This document shows, piece by piece, positions 2,249 through 18,742 of a DNA stretch of 64,000 nucleotides. The notes below the pieces were generated by a model that did not search any database, was not told where the DNA came from, and was given only the letters and a program-made list of their open reading frames with translations. Numbering within the stretch: position 1 is the stretch's first letter; each line of letters starts with the position of its first letter. Origin of the DNA: Pseudopyrenochaeta lycopersici (taxonomy: Eukaryota > Ascomycota > Dothideomycetes > Pleosporales > Pseudopyrenochaetaceae); the NCBI GenBank assembly GCA_003313425.1, contig NHZP01000019.1, positions 248,001 to 312,000 of the forward strand. Reading direction: 5' to 3'. A program made the position numbers and the translations under genes.

Positions 2249-4525
2249 TATCGATTTGCAGGCCGTTTGTTTTCGTCCACTATCAATTGCCGATTGTCGA
2301 AGATGTAAGATACCGTAAAAAAAATGCTCGAGGGGACTACGTATACATGTTGCGAAATCGTATCCAAAGATAATCAAGTTGAAATAGAAGTTGAAATACG
2401 AGCCATCTGAAAGCTCGCATAGTCCAACTGTATCCGAGCAAACCCTTCTGTTAACATAATTCAATACCCGATTCTATCGGCTACTATCATGTTACGGAGG
2501 AAAAAGACTTATCCAACCAGCTAGTCCATACTTTGAATCAGGAGTTGATGGGTTCCTCAACGGATACCCAGCGTGTGGTCTTACCCTCGGATATCAATAC
2601 CATCATAATCAGGCTGTCATATTGTATACAGTGTGCAAAGGCTACAGAGCCTACTTTGTGCCTTGGCAAGGAACGATGAAGGATCAGGGGTATGTCTGGG
2701 CGAGATGTGTTGATCCTCTTCAGCTCCCGTCATGTAAAACGTGGATGTTTGCATTAAATTGTCGCTATTCATGTTCCCTGCCCAGACACAATCTCATCGC
2801 CGTCCGTGAGGCCCTACAATTGCTGTGGGTGACATCTCACAAGCGAAGACGCCCCCTTCCCACGTGGATTTTGACTACGTTACCGTGGTTTTGCATCTGG
2901 GCCGAGGCCACATTGGCGATGGCGAATGCCAGACACCAACATCAATATCCAGGCCGTGCCGCAGCTCAACTGGGATTAGCTACCGGACTAGTTCGAGTGC
3001 TCTGGTTATCGTTTGAGCTGGATGCACACGTGAGGTGCCAATAAAGCAGCGCATGAACTGAGTCACTCAGCTGTGGTACGCCTCCGCACCTTGATCGAGT
3101 AGCGGTGACGCTGTGGACTGTTGGCAGTGTGCCTTTGGTTCCAATTTTGCCCTGTAACATTCTGTTCCTGGGCAATTGAGGCGGTCACCATGGAGATGCG
3201 GTGTAACAACTGTGCAAGTGTACAGCAGTCTTGCACGCGTTCAGTAGCGAGGATTTTGAGCAGGCCTTACGCTTACGTACACCATGGTTTAGTTCCAACT
3301 TTCGGACATATGGGAAGATGAGGAGGTGCTGCGCTGTTGTGGGTGGAGAGCCGCTCCCTTGCCAGCCTTGTGGGGAGAGCATGTGAGGCCGAAAAGGCGG
3401 GGAGCTGTTGGACCTGCAGGGGCCAAAACAAGGGCGGCCACAAGGGCTTCTTACCTCCACGCGACAGTGGGGGTTATTTCCCAGCCCCTCACCACTGCTC
3501 AATCGCGCAATCAATACTGGGGCACGGCGCTCAACCGTTTTGGAGCTCTGCGATAATGCGCACTTGAAGCGCTGGCTAGCAAGGTTGATCATCAGTCTAG
3601 CCGGCCTCAGTCCTGGAACTGGGGACTGCCCAAGGGCCTTAACCGGCCAGGTTTGCGATAGCGAAGCAGACATCCACTGATCATGCGCGGCTCTAGATGT
3701 CCGCTTGCGTCCGGGAGCCGATCTCTTTTCGCCATTGGGGGTTGCCCTGCCCGACTCAGCCTTAGCCTGGCGTCAGCGTCGCTGGCGACAGACCATTGGG
3801 GGTGATTTGAGGTCGTGGCAGCCACTCAGCGGCACACAAAACCAGCTGCACCTCAAACCTCACCGCAGACACAGAGGCGAGGGCGCTATCACGGGAAGCG
3901 CAGCAATCATGCAGCCGGTCACAGGGGGTGGCAGTCAAACGCGCAGCAAGCGGTCCAGCTTGTTGCCTGCTAAACAGTCAATACCGCTCCGAGCCCTTGG
4001 AAGTGATAGTCTTCATGGTGAAGGCGTGTCCCAATCTGTCACAATATCGTAAGGAAGCGCCTATCAGCTGCGGCAGGAGTTGAGCCCAAGAACGTTGGTC
4101 GGTTGGCAAGGTCATGGCAGCCAGCCTGTGACGATCGAGACGGGCGACGAGCGAATGTGGCGCGCTCCGAATCCTGGCTAAGTGCCTGCCGCTGCGATAC
4201 CGTACCCACCGCGGCCTGCGTTATCATCTTCACCTCGCTGCCCGTGACTTTTCTCTCCTCCTCATCATTCACGCCATCGTCGCGAACACTCCAAAAACCG
4301 CATTGCCAGTGCTCCCTTGGGTCTGAGATCATACCCACTCTACCCACCCGATTCCTCGGTACGCCAGCAACGTCAGCCTGAGAAACGACATGGTCAAAGC
4401 GCTCGCCCACCGCAATCCAGCACCAGTGACCGCTATCGCTGCCACTCAAAAGCGATACTGAGCACGCGACATCCCGACAGCTCTCCCTCTGCGGAGGCGA
4501 GAGCCTGTTAGGGCTGCTCAGCAGC
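2249..4525. other. 2.3 kb gene-poor stretch
   Basis: This long interval lies between divergently transcribed genes. Its right half (about 3300-4500) is GC-rich and so contains many chance open frames on both strands. None shows a known domain or good splice signals. I see no transposase, terminal repeats or tRNA. The last few hundred bases should be the promoter and 5' leader of the membrane protein gene. Confidence 0.5.
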
Positions 4526-6276
4526 ATGATAATACCTCGCGACCTCTTCAACGCCTCGCCGCCAGATCGCCGCACCCGCGTAGCAAACAACCCTACTCTT
4601 CTCTACAGCTGGTGGTGCACCGTCTTCTCCATCGTCATCATAGGCTTCCGATTATCTGGCCGCTACATCCGCAATGAACGGCTTTTTCGCGAGGACAAGA
4701 TCATGGCCTGGAGCGTCATTCCGCTCGTCGCTCGCATGGGTTTCGTGCATGTGGTCCTCATCTATGGCACCAACAACGTCGATATCACAGATCTCGTAGA
4801 TCCCGTCAAGATCCGCCGCCGTGAGATTGGTTCACAAATGGTCCTCGCCGCTAGGATCTTCTATGCTATGTTGTACGTACATTCTTTTGTCGTGTTCGCA
4901 CTTTTGACTAACACGTGCCCAGCATCTGGATGGCTAAATTCACCGTTTCTGAATTTCTGAAACGCCTGACGGAACGCTTCTGGAAGAAAGGCTACGAATG
5001 GGGCTTGCGTGGTATCCGCATATTCCTCATTGTCACTTTCGTCATGGTCTTTATTGCTACATTAGCAGAGTGCCGCCCTACCACTCACTACTGGCAAGTC
5101 ATTCCGGATCCAGGACCGCAATGCCGGCAAGGCTACGCACAGCTCCTTACTATGGGCATCACTGATATCATTACGGACGTGCTGCTCGTCGCCTTTCCCA
5201 TTCCGATCATCGTTCAATCTGGCATGCCTATAAAGCGGAAGATCTCTCTCATCGGACTCTTCTCATTGTCCATCATCCTGATCATCGTTACGGCTGCGCG
5301 GATGCCCTCAGTCATTGCTAAGAAAGGTCTACAACAATTTCGTACAGTATTCGCATCATCAGAGATTCTTGCTGCCGCCATCGTTTCCAACGCCATCATC
5401 CTAGGCTCATTCCTGCGCGATAGAGGCATCAAGAAACAGAAATTTAAAGCTCCTTCGACTACAGACAGCATGGAACGTAGAGGATCAGCACGAAGATATC
5501 CAAACCCAGCATGTAGCAGTGACGAAGATCTTGCACGATCACTTGGCTACCGGACAAAGCCGGAACTCGCCGAGAAGGCTTCTAGTTTACCGAGGCCAGC
5601 ACCTGTGGCTGACCTCGATCTATTGTCGTCGAATAAACAGCCTGGACCTTTCGCAGACAACAGCTGGCAATTTCCGGGGCAGGAGCCCAACATGCTGCAG
5701 ACAAATGGGGATGCAAATCGGAAAGCAGAGGATTTACGTGATCCATTGCCGAGTCCACGCGGCGGAAGACGCGTGTCTTGGTTTGATGTGGGCGGCCTTC
5801 TGGACAATTCGGCAGTTGCGCCCTCACCAACCGATTCGGTCATCACGCACGACTTCGCATCTCAACCCAGAAGAGGGTCTAGAGCCTCTAACTCGATAAT
5901 GACGAACGCTCGGGCATATCCACCCCCAGCCAGGCGGTCATCACGGCTTTCACAACAATCGGAAGACTATGAGATGTCTGTCCGGCCGAGCCATCAATTG
6001 CAGGATCCGGGCGGTTTACTCTCTGAGGACCCTGAGCAAGAAGCAGCCCAGTCCTTCCCGTCTCCACCGTCACGCTCCTCAGCCGGATTCGCTCTACGCA
6101 ATGAGCCATCTTCGTCCCTCCACCGCACTTCTACACAGACAAGCTATGACGTCCCATCATTACAAGATGCAGGCGGACTACTTGCTTCCCGCCAATATGC
6201 GCCGATTAAGCGCAGCACGACCCATACCAGTTACGACGTCCCATCGTTAAAGGACGCCGGTGGTCTGCTTTCCTGA
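4526..6276 (+). CDS. Pth11-like seven-helix rhodopsin-fold membrane protein
   Basis: Exons 4526-4872 and 4923-6276 are joined across a 50-nt intron (GTACGT donor, GACTAAC branch, CAG acceptor), giving 566 residues. The first ~320 residues hold several hydrophobic helices, including segments around 28-48, 60-85, 150-175 and 215-290. Conserved features of the fungal rhodopsin/Pth11-like integral membrane family are present, such as the Trp/Lys-rich loop after the third helix and the Ser-Asn-Ala-Ile-Ile-Leu-Gly end of the last helix. The long cytoplasmic tail is disordered and rich in Ser and Pro. It repeats a short D-x-G-G-L-L motif at least four times, the last copy at the extreme C-terminus. 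Family members are predicted surface receptors; some sense host surfaces in plant pathogens. Ligand and signalling partner are unknown here. Confidence 0.85.
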
Positions 6277-9023: not shown

Positions 9024-12000
9024 CTATTCCTGAATCTCGACCTGTTTTTGCACTGTATTGCTCTCATCAAGCGCCGTTATATCTACACTCACGAGGCGCT
9101 CTTTCTCATCAGTTCCATCCAGGTTCAGGAGCTCCTCGCGCATTTCAGCCTTCATTTTCACTTTCTCTTGCTCCAGTTCCAATTTCGCTTTGTCTTGACC
9201 TGTCACAACGCCTTTGAGCACGACCTCTAGCTCTGAGAGCCGCACCGGCTTAATCAAAAAGAGATTGATGCCGCTTGAGTTCGCTTCTTGTTGAATGTCT
9301 GCATCGGCTACGCCTGTCAAGGCGATGATTGTCACTTTGGGCAGCCCATTTCTGATTTCGTGGGCACGAATCTGACGTGTCGCTTCGAGACCATCCATCT
9401 CTGGCATGTTGATATCCATGAGCACCACATCAATATGCTTTGTTTCATCAGAGCCTGACAGAGACGAGTGTACAGTCCTGTAATGGTTGAGAGCTTCAAG
9501 ACCGTTCGTTGCGAGAACATGGCGATGCTCGAGTTTGTTGACGAAGGTGCGGAGAAGTCGAAGATTGATCGGATTGTCGTCAACGCAGAGACAATTTAGT
9601 GACCGTAATGGTTTCGAATAGACAGACTTCTTGGCTGAGGCCGTGCTAACTGCTCGTATTTCAGGAGCGCTACTCACTGAAGTCAGAATTGGCCGAGAGG
9701 CCTCGATCACACGCAATGTGTCAGGACTTTGCGGTGGTGTATTCTCCTTGAGACTGAGTTGCGTCATCTTTGGCAAACTAGAATCGGTGTCACTGGTATG
9801 CATCGCCAGGCGGTTGGCGTGCCGGTGAAGACATGACGATAACGCATTTGCCATTTTGTGGGGTCCAACAGGTTGGGATATACATTCGAAGATGATGCCT
9901 GGGACGGTGATCGCGGTCGTTGACTGAGCAGATGCCGCACCCTGGCAAACGACGATGACCGGCGCCTTCGATGCTAGCTCCGGGGTTTTGCTGTGCTGAG
10001 CGCGCAAATCCTTCGCACATACCTCAGTAGCAATGATTAGGTCGGGCGCAACAGAGCCATGACGGTCATCGCATCGTTTCATCCCGAACCATTCTTTGCA
10101 TAGACTGTCGAGAGCCTTCATGGACAGCTTCGTTGCCGTCTTATTCTTGAGACTCCGGACAAAATATTCCTCCTCTTCGTTGAAACCCACAAAGCATACA
10201 TTCAGCCCTTTCGTCTGCTTCCTGATATCCCGTAGTTGCTGCTCCTTGTCTTTCTCAGGACCGCTAGCATATAACGCTGGTGATATACTTGATTCTTTTA
10301 GTGGACAACTGACTGTGAACTTTGTGCCGCGCCCTTTTTCACTTCGAACTTCCACATCGCCTCCCAGGGACTCGACGATCTGCTTGACAATGCTGAGGCC
10401 CAATCCAGTACCTTGGCTCAAGGGATTTTCTTGCGCGAATGAGTGGAAAAGCCTGTCATTGACATAGTCTTGCGACATCCCAATGCCAGAGTCGGTGACG
10501 GAGAAGCGAAAATCGCAACACTCATCAGTTGCGCCTTTCTTCTTTTTGACTTCAAGTTTGACTTTGATGTATCCTGCAGGGGTATACTTCAAGCTATTGC
10601 CGAACAAATTCATAATCACACGGCGCCAGGCCCCGGGTTGAGTTCGAAAGACGTAATTGTCACACTGATTGATATCGAGGATTACTGTAATCGAAGGCTT
10701 GTCGGGCTCAGAAATGGATGATTCGTAAGTCTGTGCAGATGTCTTCGCGTACGAGTAGCCGGCGAATACGCTCTCGACCACATCCTCTGTTAAAACGCTC
10801 ATATCAACGTCGTTGATAAGTGTCATGATGTCATTTGTATGTGGCTGGCCAGGACTGATTATGTGCTTCGCGCTTGGAGTGCGCTTCTTTTGGCGTTTCG
10901 ATGCTCCCCTGGTTAGGTTGTTGATCTTAGCAAAGTCAAGGACCTGGACTGGTTAGTACATACATCTGGATGCATTCGGTAAGCTATTGCTACTTACATG
11001 ATTGATCGTCTCTAATAAAGTTTTGCCGCATGTCTCTATGGTCGCTACATGAGAAGTTTGTTGATTATCGAGAGAAGAGTCATTCAACAGGTCGGTCATG
11101 CCGAGGATGCCATGTAGGGGAGATCGCAGCTCATGACTGATTGAAGAAATAAAATCGGCCTTTGCTGCATCCGCTAATTTGGTATCCAGGCGGGCTATCT
11201 CCGCCATGACGGAATTGCTGAAAGCCGCCAGGTAGCTCAACTCTTGCTCACTGGTGAAGACACGCATGGGATCTGAACTCCAGATGATAGCGCTCGCAAA
11301 CCATCGATCGCGGTGCATGTCCCATAATGGATATAAAACTAAGCTCCGAGCCTTGGGAAAAACGCTCCTGAGGAAATTTTCATCGTCTATACTCCTCGTG
11401 GACTCTGACTTTCGAGATACGGTGAAGGGGAATCCATCAGAAAATTCTAACTCACCGCCACCCGCACCACCGCTTGACGGAGAATTGATAGCTGGCGTAC
11501 TGTCATCATCATCAAAATTGAATATTTGGCCATGTGAGTAAGACCGTAGAAGGTGTCGTAAGACACTCTCAGACATGGAATACTCAACTTCAGCAGTCAT
11601 AGAGCCACGATTGGTCTTGCTCAGGGCTGACCCAAGCAGAACACAGGGTTTGTCGGGTTCTGGCAATCCCTCTGACAAGTCATCGTCCACGAGTCCACCG
11701 AAAGTACTGATCTTAGCGTCAAAAAATGCAGCACCGTCTGTTTCCGTTGCATCAACGATCATGCTTGCGGCTCTACTGAAGGCAGCCCTAATCTCCGGAG
11801 CAATCCTATTTTTCTGATCGTTGTCCGCTGATGATGTTGTCTTAGTGGTTACGTCGGAAACGCGAGTATCGGGCATTGTGTCGGACATAGGCGTGGGAGC
11901 TGTGCTCGCAGGGTGGATGCTGGATGGTGTTGCAGTCCTCGGGCTTGTCACACTCTGCACACTTGACTCCACACTATCATATCGATTAAGTACATGCGAT

Positions 12001-12988
12001 TGTTGCGTCGCGTTGGAGGACCCAGAAGCGCGTTGGCGTTGGGTAGGCATGTTGTCTGGTGGACTAGTGGACGGCGGTTGTTCTGAATCCCAAGGGTCTT
12101 GCCACCAGTTCTCCAGGTCACTTTTCCCTTCCGCAAATGATCCTAAGCTCTTTACCATTATCTTGCCTCTGCGATGATCCTCTGTGGCTCGTGTCATCTC
12201 GAGGTGGCGCATCACCGCACCAGCCATATCTTTAAGAAACTGCAGTTGGTGAGAGGAGATACCATCCCTGGGCTTGTCGTCTAAGACGCAGAAAGTACCA
12301 ATGTTGTGACCGCTCGGGCTTCGGATGGGAACACCGGCGTAGAAGCGAGAATGTGGTGGTCCTGCTACAAATGGGTAGTTTCTGAAACGGTGATCTTCTC
12401 TCAAATCATTCACGATGAGCGATGGGACCTCATTGTAGTGATCGTTGGGTAAGCCAGAATAGTTTGAGGGTAGATTGACGGTATAGTAGCATATGCTCTT
12501 TCTCTTAGGAAAAATAGTACTGCCCCAGCAAAGGCGGTCTTCTTCGAATTCCGGCTCTCCAGTGTGTAGGGATAGTGTTCTTGTGGCCTCGGCGAGGATA
12601 TAGCAGTCCCGGCGATCGAAGAAAGATATGAGACATCTTCGCGTATTCAGGCGAAGGGCTCCCAACTGCGCAAACGCAGTCAAGGACTTATCCTCAGACG
12701 GTCGTGGCGCGTCTCCTACGGGCAGCGCAGGGACACAGGGAATCGCTTGCGCAGGGTCGACGGCGAGTGAGGGCGAGGATAGACGGCTCAGGGCTCCCTC
12801 AAATCTGGGATGCTGAGGGTAGTAACTGCAAAAATGACGTGAGCGTTGCCCGGCTGGCTATACCTTCGCGACCCCGGGTGTACGAACCGATAGAACTCGC
12901 GTTCTTTCAGCGCGAGATCATGCTCCATTTTCTTTCTGGGCTTGCCAGTATAAGAGCGCGGTGTCGCGACACCGTGGGGGTCAGCCAT
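9024..12988 (-). CDS. Hybrid sensor histidine kinase with GAF domain and C-terminal receiver
   Basis: Three exons (12864-12988, 10998-12825, 9024-10943) give 1290 residues. The introns are 12826-12863 (only 38 nt) and 10944-10997 (54 nt, TACTAAC branch). A GAF-type sensor region follows residue ~85; its core (about 100-250) has the fungal HHK signature of a redox/light-type GAF. A long Ser/Thr-rich linker follows. The HisKA H-box SHELRSPLHG puts the phosphorylated His at about 606. The HATPase_c N-box (Asn about 767), G1 (DSGIGM) and G2 (GTGLGLSI) are intact. The receiver has the acidic pair, phospho-acceptor Asp at about 1161 in MDINMPEMDG, and the Thr and Lys of its switch. It should pass phosphate through an Hpt protein to response regulators controlling stress MAPK or development. 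The stimulus is unknown. Exon 1 begins with a conserved-looking MADPHGVATPRS start and shares a ~1 kb divergent promoter with the NAD synthetase gene. Confidence 0.92.
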
Positions 12989-13973: not shown

Positions 13974-16900
13974 ATGAAGTGCATAGTAGTTTCTACATGC
14001 AATCTCAATCAATGGGCCCGTAAGTTATGACTAAATCCAACCGCGTTATCGTTATTGACTTCGAGAAGTGGATTTTGAGGGTAACCGAGATCGTATCAAG
14101 GAGAGTATACGCATAGCGAAAGAACGTAACTCCTCACTACGAACAGGACCAGAGCTTGAAGTGCCAGGTACGCCGTTCCTTGGGGCTGTGCATATCGAAA
14201 TCTCTTTTCTGTTTTCAACTAGTCAGCGATATTAACTTCCAACCAGGATATGGCTGTCTTGACCACCACTTGGAGCTTGACGTTATCCGCCACGTACGTA
14301 TCTCCACTCAGATATTGTCTCTACTATATACTAATCCAAGGTTGCAACTTCAGTCTTGGGAAATGCTAGCATCTATTTTACTGGACGAATCCTGCCATGG
14401 CATTCTTCTTGACATTGGCATGCCAGTGCTGCATAGGGGGACCCGATACAACGCGAGGATCATATGCAAAGATGGCAAGATTCTCTTGATTCGACCAAAG
14501 TTGTATCTCGCGCAAGAAGGAAATGGTAAGCTGTCCCAGAATGCTGCCCCTTGAATATGCCATCGCTTAGAGCTCTGCTGAATCATTACAGTATGTCAGC
14601 CTACGTTCCTGGTTATGCCAGTTCCCATGGTCATGCACCGCAAAGAGCAACCCCGTTTCAAGGTAATTTCAAGTACGCAAGAACAACATACTAATTTGTG
14701 TGCTTTGACAGTACAGAGAGATGCGCTATTTCACAGTGAGTCTGCAGGAACACATCCTGGATCATGGCTGATTTAGCATAGCCTTGGAATCGTCCAGCAT
14801 ATTGCGAAGAATATGAGCTCCGCGAGCTTCCCGAGGCTTGCTTGAAGCTACAGGGCTCCAAGTCGTGTCTTATAGGTGACGGAATCGTCGAAGCTAGTGA
14901 TTGTATGTGATAATTCCTACTCGGGTTATTTTTGGAGCGCATGCTGACTTCTATTTTCACAATAGGCACGATTGGAGCTGAAACCTGGTATTATCAACAA
15001 GTACCATCATTTCAAGTTGAGAATCTGCTGACATTATTCACAGTGAAGAACTGTATGTTTCTTTGGTGCATCAACAGACCTGCGTCGAACTCTTTAGGGT
15101 TTGTTTGGGAACTTTCAAACAGAGCTGACTTTGTTGACATCACAGTTTCACTCCATACAGTCCGCACAATTCACTGTAAGATCTCTCTGCCTAATGCATG
15201 CATTTGGAGAATCCAAGACTCACATGTATTTTTAGGTCTCTGGCAGGCTGTGAGATCATCACAAGTACGCAAAACGATTCTTTACAGATAGGTCATGAGA
15301 TCGACAGGAATACTGACATTACCTACCCATTCAGATAGCTCTGGCTCCCACCACGAATTAAGGAAGGTGAGTTCGTTCGTTTCACTTTGAAACTTACACT
15401 TCCGGCTTCCCAATGTTACTATTACTCTCTAGCTTTGCGCGTGACGAATGTAAATTACTTTGTTCGCGACTGACATGCTTTGTCTAGCTTGACACCAGAA
15501 TAGCCTTGATTCAAGAAGCTACACGAAAGTGTGGTGGTATCTATCTCTATGCGTAAGTTCTTCCTATACTTCCTTCGCTCCAGGAAATATACTTACTTTA
15601 GTTCAGTAATCAGCAAGGATGTAAGTTGAGTCCAACGGCTACTTGAGATGATGGGCAAAGCTATTGCGTGCTGTGGTACTAACAACATAGGTGACGGAGA
15701 CAGACTGTACTACGATGGATGTGCCATGATCAGTAAGTAAATTCACTTGGAAAGACCGCCTGATACTGACTAATGTGCTTAGTCGTTAATGGTACCATTC
15801 GAGCTCAAGGTTCTCAATTTGTATGTCCCATCCAAATCACACCTCCACAAAATACAAACTTGTCTTATGGTCCTTCGCTCTTAAATGTTTACTAAGGCAC
15901 ATGATACTCCCAGAGTCTGAAGTCGGTTGAGGTTATATCTGCGACAGTATCTCTGGAAGAAGTGTGGGCCTATCGTACTTCGCCTTCACGGGGCCTTCAG
16001 GCTATTACAGCGCCCCAGTATGAGAGAGTCAAATTGGACTTTAAACTCTCAAAGTCAGAACACGAATTCAACTCAGACATGGTCCCAGACTCAGGTATAT
16101 TTCTTGTAATAGTCGTGTTGATCTCAAGCTAATTGTGGTGTTAGCCCAGCCGCTTCGGACTCATACTCGTGCGTTTATCTGTATGGATGGTAGATGACAC
16201 TCATACTAACGTTGTGGTATCACTTTTAGCCGAAGAAGAGATCGCTATGGGTCCTGCCTGTTGGCTCGCTGACTACTTGTTCCGGTCCAAAGCGGCCGGG
16301 TTTTTCAGTAAGCTTCGTCATTTTAGGTGTCACGGTGCCATTTGCTAAAAGATGCTTCAATAGTTCCGCTCTCGGGTGGATTAGACAGTGCTTCTACTGC
16401 GACTATTGTATACTCGATGTGTACGATTATTATGAGAGAACTGGACGAAGGGAACGAAACTGTAAAGGCAAATGTTCTCCGACTATGGGGTGCATATCAT
16501 CCACAAGGCTCTCTTCCCACGACAGCCAAAGAGTAAGTCATCATTCTAAATTCGGGCCAGATTTGAAATTTAAATGGTATACAGGTTGTGCTCAGTGATT
16601 TTACACACATCATTCTTAGGAATGGCAAAGCAATCTTCCCAGGAGACCCGTAGCCGTGCCCAACGTCTAGCAGACGCCATTGGTTGCTACCATCTTTCCG
16701 TGGATATTGTAAGTATTTATGAAAAGATCATATTTAAACCATATACTGAAGTTATATTTTCAACCTAGGACAACATTTTCGCAGCACAGAAAGACCTCCT
16801 CACTCAAGCGACAGGATTTGCCCCAGCTTTCCGCTCGGATGGTGGACAGCCCGCTGAAAAGTGAGTTCTCCCTATTAGCTCCACAAGAGTGATTGTTGTA

Positions 16901-18742
16901 ACCAGAAAACCTTGCAGTCTTGCTCTTCAGAATATTCAGGCTCGTAGTAGGATGGTGTCGTCATATTACTTCGCGCAACTCTTACCTACTGTACGCAAGC
17001 GATCTGGCGGAGGCAGCCTTCTAGTCCTTGGATCTGGCAACGTCGATGAATGTCTCAGAGGGTATCTAACAAAGTACGATTGCTCAAGTGCTGTAGGTTT
17101 ACGCGTTCCAAGGCCACGATTTAAACACTTACTAATGCTTTGAATTTCAGGATCTGAACCCTATTGGTAAGAGCTTCTAGCGGGGCACGCCTGATGCAAA
17201 TACTAAATTCATATCTCAACTACCTAGGTTCTATAAGCAAGGGTAAGCTCTCAGTCCAATAATGCTCGTATGTTGTACGCTGAACGATATATCTAGTCGA
17301 CCTTAAGAGCTTCCTTCGGTATGCGATAACGGCTCTGGACTTGCCCATCCTATCGTAAGTCATCCTGAGTTCAAAATTATCACTTATGAGACACTGACAT
17401 ACAATTCAATTAGGGAGTTTCTAGAGTAAGGAAACCGCTCGTAGCATGCGGAGCCATACTGACTGCATCCATAGAGCTACTCCAACTGCGGAATTGGAGC
17501 CGATTACGGTCCGTCAAGAACCTAGGCATACCTTTGTTGAGAACAAGACACTGACTTCATATTCCCAAAACAGGACGATTAGTAAGTATAACACTGTCAT
17601 AATGTATAAAATCCGCTAACTTCAAATCTCACTTTAGCGTACAAAGTGAGCAAATTTGCATACGAGCAGTTGAAGACATAGACATACTGACTTGTTGCTT
17701 CTAATAGGTGATGAAGCTGATAGTAAGTCATACTCTAGATAGGCTTCACCAGCTTTTATCCACCCCCTTTGATGACACTAACGATTTTAGTGGGCATGAC
17801 CGTATGTCGACTCCACGATTGCGTTGCAAGCACAATACTGACCTCGAAAAGTACGCTGAACTCTCGGAGTTCGGCAAACTCCGTAAAGAGGCTAAACTTG
17901 GTAACGATTCCCCAGAACTATGCTTGACGATGTCACTGACTCTCATACTCTAACAGGCCCGGTATGTCCAAAATTCGAACGGAATGCGTGAAGCCTACGC
18001 TCTCATGACGACCATACTTGCAATGATGACGCTGACTCTGTGTTTACTCCTAGTTTGGAATGTTCATGCGTCTATCTCACTTGTGGCGAGATAAACTTTC
18101 CATCCGCGAGATTGCAGATAAGGTGAAGAGGTTCAATCATTACTACGTAGGTTACCTCTGTTCCACTCATGCGAATTTATGGAGTCTATGATATGCTTTC
18201 AAAGGATGATAGCTGACATCTGAACTAGGCGATTAACAGGCACAAGGTACGAATGCCATTGCAACTGCATAAAACCTATACACGCTCCGAATCCCTTCCT
18301 ATTACATTCGCCCCTGCTAACTCCACCACTACCTACGCAGATGACTACGATGACGCCGGTTAGTATCTCTGTACGTCTTTGTGACTATATTCTAACTCCT
18401 CTTAGGCCTATCACGCCGAAGCCTACAGTATGTGGTTCCAAGACGTTACCTTTCGATCTTACTACATTCACTGCTAACGTTTGCTGCAAAAAGGCCCTGA
18501 TGATAACCGCTTCGATCTGAGGCCCTTCCTGTACGTAACCAATTTGCACGATCTGCTTGAGAGATATAGACTGACTCCGTACCTCGCTCTAGATACCCAC
18601 CGTTCTATGAGGTATGTGTTCGTATTGATTTACTTGAAAGTATTGTGATACGCTGACTTTTACGAAGTCTTGGAGCTTCAAGAAGATTGACGAAGCGGTG
18701 GCGAGGATTGAAGAGGCGGAGAAGAAGAAAGGGGCTGCATAG
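13974..18742 (+). CDS. QNS1: Glutamine-dependent NAD+ synthetase with 39 intron positions
   Basis: This enzyme converts nicotinate adenine dinucleotide plus glutamine and ATP to NAD+. The protein is 714 residues. The glutaminase domain has the triad Glu44, Lys113 and Cys177; the synthetase domain has the ATP PP-loop [10 protein letters not shown] (about 359-368). Exons: 13974-14019, 14069-14167, 14247-14293, 14354-14524, 14712-14735, 14782-14902, 14966-14987, 15044-15052, 15146-15175, 15236-15264, 15335-15366, 15488-15552, 15607-15620, 15691-15732, 15783-15820, 15914-16094, 16145-16168, 16230-16307, 16364-16532, 16585-16708, 16769-16860, 16918-17092, 17151-17166, 17228-17242, 17297-17354, 17414-17425, 17475-17508, 17574-17581, 17638-17645, 17708-17722, 17791-17801, 17852-17900, 17957-17961, 18054-18146, 18229-18246, 18341-18358, 18406-18427, 18494-18530, 18593-18611, 18668-18742. 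All introns are GT-AG and all junctions keep frame. Each restores family sequence I know, for example [29 protein letters not shown] and [15 protein letters not shown]. The spliced length equals yeast Qns1. No frameshift or premature stop remains, so it looks functional. Such intron density is extreme for an ascomycete. Confidence 0.95.
14525..14711 (+). other. Probable stwintron (intron nested in another intron's donor)
   Basis: Within the NAD synthetase gene, an inner GT-AG intron (14526-14591, GTAAGC to ACAG) sits between the first and second base of an outer donor. Removing it joins G at 14525 to TATGT at 14592 and creates a GTATGT donor. The outer intron then runs to the CAG at 14709-14711, with a TACTAAT branch-like site. 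Double splicing gives EGN followed directly by YREMRYFT, the conserved glutaminase sequence, and a total of 714 residues. The alternative keeps 14592-14662 as an in-frame exon that adds 24 residues absent from the family. I infer the stwintron reading from conservation and length. Confidence 0.75.
17151..18611 (+). other. Microexon cluster in the NAD synthetase gene
   Basis: In this 1.46-kb part of the gene, 17 exons alternate with 16 introns, most of 47-94 nt. Exon lengths are, in order, 16, 15, 58, 12, 34, 8, 8, 15, 11, 49, 5, 93, 18, 18, 22, 37 and 19 nt. The 5-nt exon (17957-17961, GCCCG) and the two 8-nt exons (17574-17581 and 17638-17645) are needed to read LGPFGMF and DDYVQSDEAD in frame. 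Each is flanked by a CAG or TAG acceptor and a GT donor. Confidence 0.85.

Follow-up and report, generated by a model that had tools for sequence, protein, structure and literature searches.

In four Fusarium species the gene of the glutamine-dependent nicotinamide adenine dinucleotide (NAD+) synthetase has 12–14 introns and ranks second in intron count among 226 core genes, for which the mean is 2.53; the first rank goes to CTP synthetase, with 15 introns (PMC5677156). Another gene with introns far above the genome average is the alpha-amylase of basidiomycetes, of bacterial origin, which has 8–22 introns of untraceable source (PMC3584928). In vertebrates and some other groups, intron-rich genes reach 6–7 introns per kb (PMC3174169). 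Here we analyse the gene of the same NAD synthetase, QNS1, in a 64-kb stretch of the Pseudopyrenochaeta lycopersici genome, hereafter called the window (C19:248001-312000; the source genome measures 62.7 Mb in 188 contigs). This gene can be read at full length solely after removal of introns at 39 positions, about three times as many as in Fusarium, and 39 positions in 2145 coding nucleotides (nt) go well beyond the intron richness reported for the Fusarium gene (PMC5677156). No account of a QNS1 this intron-dense was found among the matches listed in the open-access literature.

A previous interpretation of the window, made from the letters only (the sequence-only reading), had assumed QNS1 to be generally intron-poor in fungi and had proposed a recent burst of intron gain. 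The 12–14 introns of the Fusarium gene, against a mean of 2.53, contradict the assumption (PMC5677156) and make a long, gene-specific history likelier than a sudden burst. We consider it probable (about 0.6) that the gene is an intact fungal QNS1 in which ordinary introns gathered gene-specifically over a long time, via many events and not in one recent burst.

Structure of QNS1 and of its product

The final model of QNS1 (13974-18742, plus strand) has 40 introns at 39 positions. They total 2624 nt for 2145 nt of coding sequence (CDS). Counted by position, the density is 18.2 introns per kb of CDS, and exons average 54 nt; 13 exons measure 20 nt or less, the shortest 5 nt. The earlier statement that most introns measure 46–70 nt holds for 32 of the 40, while the remainder reach 121 nt.

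The spliced product is a glutamine-dependent NAD synthetase (Qns1) of 714 residues, with Glu44, Lys113 and Cys177 and the PP-loop SGGLDS. The nitrilase-type Glu-Lys-Cys triad is family-defining for the eukaryotic glutamine-dependent NAD synthetases (Qns1/NADSYN1), and its three residues are identical in 75 of the 75 homologs of our set (73 bacterial proteins, yeast and human; the bacterial ones were taken from 76 loci, three being dropped for having no frame within the set length and motif limits). The NAD synthase domain PF02540 was detected at 23.6 bits (cut-off 21), its profile covering just 45 positions of the gene, and a hand-made rough translation of 691 aa matched human NADSYN1 at 740 bits. 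The triad, the NAD synthase domain with its PP-loop, the full length and the place among eukaryotes (see below) assign the protein to the eukaryotic Qns1/NADSYN1 family. Spliced alignment thus upholds the complete Qns1 of the sequence-only reading, with its 39 in-frame intron positions, its triad, its PP-loop and its 714 residues, and at the level of sequence the observation is confirmed as real and extreme. The elements of the gene are, in window coordinates:

13974-18742 (+): QNS1 gene, ATG at 13974, TAG at 18740-18742; 40 exons, CDS 2145 nt, 714 aa
14020-14068 (+): intron 1, 49 nt, phase 1
14168-14246 (+): intron 2, 79 nt, phase 1
14294-14353 (+): intron 3, 60 nt, phase 0; sole intron of a length multiple of 3 without in-frame stop
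14525-14711 (+): intron position 4, predicted [D1,2] stwintron; external intron G14525 plus 14592-14711, 121 nt; joins GN|YREMR
14526-14591 (+): predicted internal intron of the stwintron, 66 nt; splits the external donor G|TATGT; weak branch site
14736-14781 (+): intron 5, 46 nt
14903-14965 (+): intron 6, 63 nt
14988-15043 (+): intron 7, 56 nt, within the Cys177 codon
15044-15052 (+): 9-nt microexon, part of CEEL; conserved in 75/75 homologs
15053-15145 (+): intron 8, 93 nt
15176-15235 (+): intron 9, 60 nt
15265-15334 (+): intron 10, 70 nt
15367-15487 (+): intron 11, 121 nt
15553-15606 (+): intron 12, 54 nt
15621-15690 (+): intron 13, 70 nt
15733-15782 (+): intron 14, 50 nt
15821-15913 (+): intron 15, 93 nt
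16095-16144 (+): intron 16, 50 nt; precise ends vary with the guide protein
16169-16229 (+): intron 17, 61 nt
16308-16363 (+): intron 18, 56 nt; directly 5' of the PP-loop SGGLDS
16533-16584 (+): intron 19, 52 nt
16709-16768 (+): intron 20, 60 nt
16861-16917 (+): intron 21, 57 nt
17093-17150 (+): intron 22, 58 nt
17167-17227 (+): intron 23, 61 nt
17243-17296 (+): intron 24, 54 nt
17355-17413 (+): intron 25, 59 nt; fused with intron 26 by some guides
17426-17474 (+): intron 26, 49 nt
17509-17573 (+): intron 27, 65 nt; introns 27–29 fused at the top intron cost
17582-17637 (+): intron 28, 56 nt
17646-17707 (+): intron 29, 62 nt
17723-17790 (+): intron 30, 68 nt
17802-17851 (+): intron 31, 50 nt
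17901-17956 (+): intron 32, 56 nt
17957-17961 (+): 5-nt microexon, finishes Gly-Pro of LGPFGMF, a pair conserved in 75/75 homologs
17962-18053 (+): intron 33, 92 nt
18147-18228 (+): intron 34, 82 nt
18247-18340 (+): intron 35, 94 nt
18359-18405 (+): intron 36, 47 nt
18428-18493 (+): intron 37, 66 nt
18531-18592 (+): intron 38, 62 nt; fused with intron 39 by the Poribacteria, Chloroflexi and human guides in the cost test
18612-18667 (+): intron 39, 56 nt; adjoins a one-residue length difference

Robustness of the intron model

The spliced alignment was guided by human NADSYN1 (two blocks joined by five residues) and by yeast Qns1. Each guide gave 40 introns, 39 of them identical between both. 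A first, purely signal-based parse had given 49 introns, an over-call. When the cost per intron was raised under three guides (one protein of Poribacteria, one of Chloroflexi and the human one), 35–38 introns were left and 31–36 of the 39 were recovered exactly; at heavy cost 35–36 were still left. The stwintron at position 4 was supplied to the program as a permitted jump, so this test has no bearing on it. The less certain introns, among the misses listed, are introns 16, 25–29, 38 and 39.

The 38 simple introns all start with GT, and an AG ends the intron at each of the 39 positions. A CTRAY branch site is present in 29 of the 38 simple introns, versus 6.6 ± 2.2 in shuffles. Retention would cause a frameshift or a stop at 38 of the 39 positions. 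For 38 of the 39 introns the protein alignment is gapless within ±3 residues of the junction, in at least 74 of the 75 homologs; the junction of intron 39 is gapless in none of the 75, owing to the adjacent one-residue length difference. The microexons of 9 nt (part of CEEL, at Cys177) and 5 nt (Gly-Pro) code for invariant residues, others, e.g. those of 8 and 12 nt, for variable ones.

That the gene has been over-parsed, with fewer true introns than modelled, or that it is dead, might be supposed from the exact recovery of just 31–36 of the 39 introns under the Poribacteria, Chloroflexi and human guides. But this seems very unlikely: 35–36 introns survive the heavy cost, the junctions are gapless, the catalytic residues are those of all homologs, a 5-nt exon codes for an invariant Gly-Pro, and a search with the protein found no further QNS1 trace except a broken fragment.

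Along the CDS the introns are spaced in a random-like manner (coefficient of variation 0.94 versus a null of 0.96). A 3' excess is weak: the final 27% of the CDS holds 18 of the 39 introns, at a cut picked afterwards (P 0.009), and a scan of all windows does not uphold it (P 0.14), the Kolmogorov-Smirnov test giving P 0.036.

A predicted stwintron at position 4

Two introns called inside 14526-14711 fit better as one nested intron, and removing both restores Gly-Asn to Tyr-Arg-Glu. The donor G|TATGT is split between bases 1 and 2 and the external intron is canonical. We predict that 14525-14711 is a [D1,2] stwintron, for which two consecutive splicing steps would be needed. It resembles the described [D1,2] stwintrons, in which the internal intron interrupts the external donor directly after its first base (PMC12403724, PMC5639578), but it is a lone case, without sister copies found in the genome. 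An additional exon of 71 nt or a 5-nt microexon within 14592-14663 was rejected: either adds residues between GN and YRE, and the stwintron is preferred because none of the 75 homologs has an insertion there. No more stwintrons were found among the seven other introns of at least 78 nt, by a scan whose branch-site threshold missed the known one too.

Intron density elsewhere in the genome

Signals of introns were scanned without a protein guide in 998 two-kb windows on both strands (284 kb, less than 0.5% of the genome), drawn from the 64-kb window, from a further two stretches of 10 kb each and from 20 sampled ones of equal length. QNS1 tops them all, with 15–18 introns per 2 kb versus 9–11 in the best window elsewhere, under weights that were hand-set after reading QNS1 and favour it somewhat. 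The 99th percentile of all windows is 9–10 per 2 kb. At the loosest setting 39 calls fall inside QNS1, 30 of the 39 being model introns. Separately, C17:130001-140000 shows raised intron-like signals on both strands, perhaps an effect of base composition and not of genes.

Gene families of the same genome were examined as well. In the chaperonin family (PF00118), 17 of 19 rows belong to eight genes with 1–4 matched segments apiece; the other two rows, a 533-residue frame on C9 and part of a 2435-residue frame on C4, were set aside. The tRNA-synthetase family (PF00133) has 12 rows at eight loci with 1–3 segments per locus. Nicotinate phosphoribosyltransferase gives two segments, both within one 475-residue open frame. 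CTP synthase (C23:384261-385098) gives three segments, all of the N-terminal domain and the third lying within an open frame of 385 residues; this gene looks only modestly split, in contrast to the Fusarium CTP synthetase with its 15 introns (PMC5677156). The introns of QNS1 are at least ten times those inside the domains of the eight chaperonin-family genes (0–3 gaps). Splice-site scores do not differ detectably, with a median of 7.0 at the 39 positions and 6.8 at nine chaperonin-family gaps (Mann-Whitney P 0.53), the top-scoring candidate being used for each gap and one gap being doubtful.

The intron excess is not general in the sampled genes, nor is it common to nicotinate phosphoribosyltransferase, the sole other NAD-pathway gene examined. 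We read it as gene-specific because the sampled families and scan windows show far fewer interruptions. Within the sampled part of the genome, the earlier description of an unusual gene with dense introns and a functional-looking product is supported.

Origin of the introns

Intron gain in ascomycetes has been described for the introner-like elements of Dothideomycetes, there two per gene at once; they decay fast and may strike one gene more than once (PMC4457414). Repeated insertion of such elements, or of duplicating stwintrons, in QNS1 alone would amount to the recent burst proposed earlier. It would suit the extreme density of one gene against a normal sampled background, the slight excess in mean similarity among introns detailed in the Discussion, and the occurrence of one predicted [D1,2] stwintron, a type reported to multiply in Xylariales (PMC12403724).

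The all-against-all alignment of the 40 introns, however, gave no close pairs: the best pair scores 26, within the shuffled range (over 60 shuffles the maxima average 23.2 and reach 30). Searches of the 62.7-Mb genome at E≤10 with the whole gene, and singly with the stwintron, returned self-matches only, the search skipping very common words. Introner-like elements are recognisable copies (PMC4457414); the introns of QNS1 are not, since no similarity of the kind expected between copies was found in pairs or in other parts of the genome, the mean alone being slightly higher than in shuffles. Introner copies were rejected as a source on these grounds. Repeats at the junctions are at chance (1.08 nt versus 1.01) and give no support to insertion with target duplication, though ascomycete introner families are described as being without such repeats (PMC12403724, PMC9860276). 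Besides, introner-like elements are called long relative to regular introns of 50–55 bp (PMC4457414), and 32 of the 40 introns here have 46–70 nt. A recent burst is not supported by these intron comparisons, and we regard it as unlikely.

Repeated tandem duplication, likewise put forward by the sequence-only reading, finds no better backing. The introns resemble the CDS no more than shuffles do (observed mean 18.1 versus a null of 17.8), and duplication of exons or of coding sequence in tandem was rejected as their source.

Most positions could also be very old, this lineage having lost few of them. Such retention agrees with the 12–14 introns of the same gene in Fusarium (PMC5677156), with the absence of close intron pairs and with the location of the introns in rather more conserved stretches (0.636 versus 0.547, P 0.013). 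But the density here, 18.2 introns per kb of CDS, comes close to three times the 6–7 per kb of intron-rich genes (PMC3174169), so that retention alone needs an ancestor far denser than those groups, and the phases 0, 1 and 2 are nearly even (14, 15 and 10 introns respectively). We find it rather improbable as the main explanation.

Descent of the protein and a second QNS1 trace

In a quick tree of 31 rows (28 of the 73 bacterial proteins, with just yeast and human as eukaryote references), the protein groups with yeast (Shimodaira-Hasegawa-like approximate likelihood-ratio test, SH-aLRT, 97), then with human (99), apart from the 28 bacterial proteins. On this placement it is a vertical, fast-evolving fungal Qns1.

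Poribacteria and Chloroflexi genomes hold eukaryote-type NAD synthetases with 53–57% identity, and in the homolog alignment yeast and human are nearer to most of these proteins than to the window protein. QNS1 might accordingly be a bacterial gene that was acquired and then colonised by introns, as was the alpha-amylase of basidiomycetes. The two genes are alike in having introns far above the genome average and of untraceable source; they differ in that the alpha-amylase has 8–22 introns and came by bacterial transfer (PMC3584928), while QNS1 has 39 positions and groups with fungal and animal genes. The protein does not nest in a bacterial clade (yeast 97, human 99, in a quick tree with a long branch and two eukaryote references), and a bacterial origin, which we rejected, appears extremely improbable.

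A protein search found a single further QNS1 trace, at C51:212849-213322 (4350-4823 of the extracted stretch). It is a broken second QNS1 that covers residues 1–123 in pieces interrupted by stops and is identical to yeast at about half of them. By eye, it has an intron near residue 98, a place without one in the window gene.

Discussion

The long, gene-specific accumulation of ordinary introns draws on what can be read off the DNA: the structure of the gene, its frame, its conserved product, splice signals like those of the host, little mutual similarity among the introns and no second DNA copy found. QNS1 would gain or keep introns unusually readily in filamentous ascomycetes, as the 12–14 of Fusarium suggest, and in this lineage many separate events, spread over a long period, would have brought the number to 39. 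Each short intron would be recognised across itself, i.e. by intron definition, and this may be why exons of 5–15 nt can be kept. Our guess is that intron loss by recombination with complementary DNA rarely reaches QNS1, and that the gene tolerates gains of introns so short and well marked.

Several observations weigh against this accumulation. The mean intron-intron similarity is 12.63 versus 12.05 ± 0.07 in shuffles, a small but clear excess (11.66 for reverse complements); common branch sites and T runs may be its source. The stwintron was the one intron searched singly, the others being searched just within the whole-gene query. Old introners can lose their similarity fast. The end branch of the protein is 1.14, versus 0.48 for yeast, and so long a branch implies that the history of the gene is unusual in some way. 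Finally, the C51 relic lacks the introns of positions 1, 3 and 4. Its structure fits intron gain after the split of the copies equally with loss in the relic and, as a relic, it tells only that its parent QNS1 copy had a different structure.

Dependence of NAD synthesis on splicing, also suggested by the sequence-only reading, is plausible on arithmetic: an efficiency of 98% per event over 40 events would leave just 45% of transcripts fully spliced. A bolder proposal, which we hold as a long shot, is that in filamentous ascomycetes QNS1 is a gene-specific intron sink, with gains recurring by lineage. Retention of nearly any intron shifts the frame or introduces a stop, which would tie NAD output to splicing capacity, and the introns would then serve NAD homeostasis as a brake or sensor.

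Since introns of 46–121 nt flank exons as small as 5, 8 and 9 nt, the gene offers a stress test of splicing. Together with its Fusarium counterpart (12–14 introns), it would make the accumulation of introns in some genes traceable across sequenced ascomycetes through one conserved, easily aligned protein. Annotation may well overlook such genes, as the 45 positions caught by the PF02540 profile illustrate.

Additional observations

A weak PF02540 match (28 bits) at C50:116031-116234 lies in a 662-residue open frame, perhaps a GMP synthase. In the window itself, two adjacent open frames at 9024-12683 (minus strand), one GAF-HisKA and the other HATPase-receiver, are perhaps one split gene of a hybrid histidine kinase; if so, the split may correspond to a short intron or a frame change.

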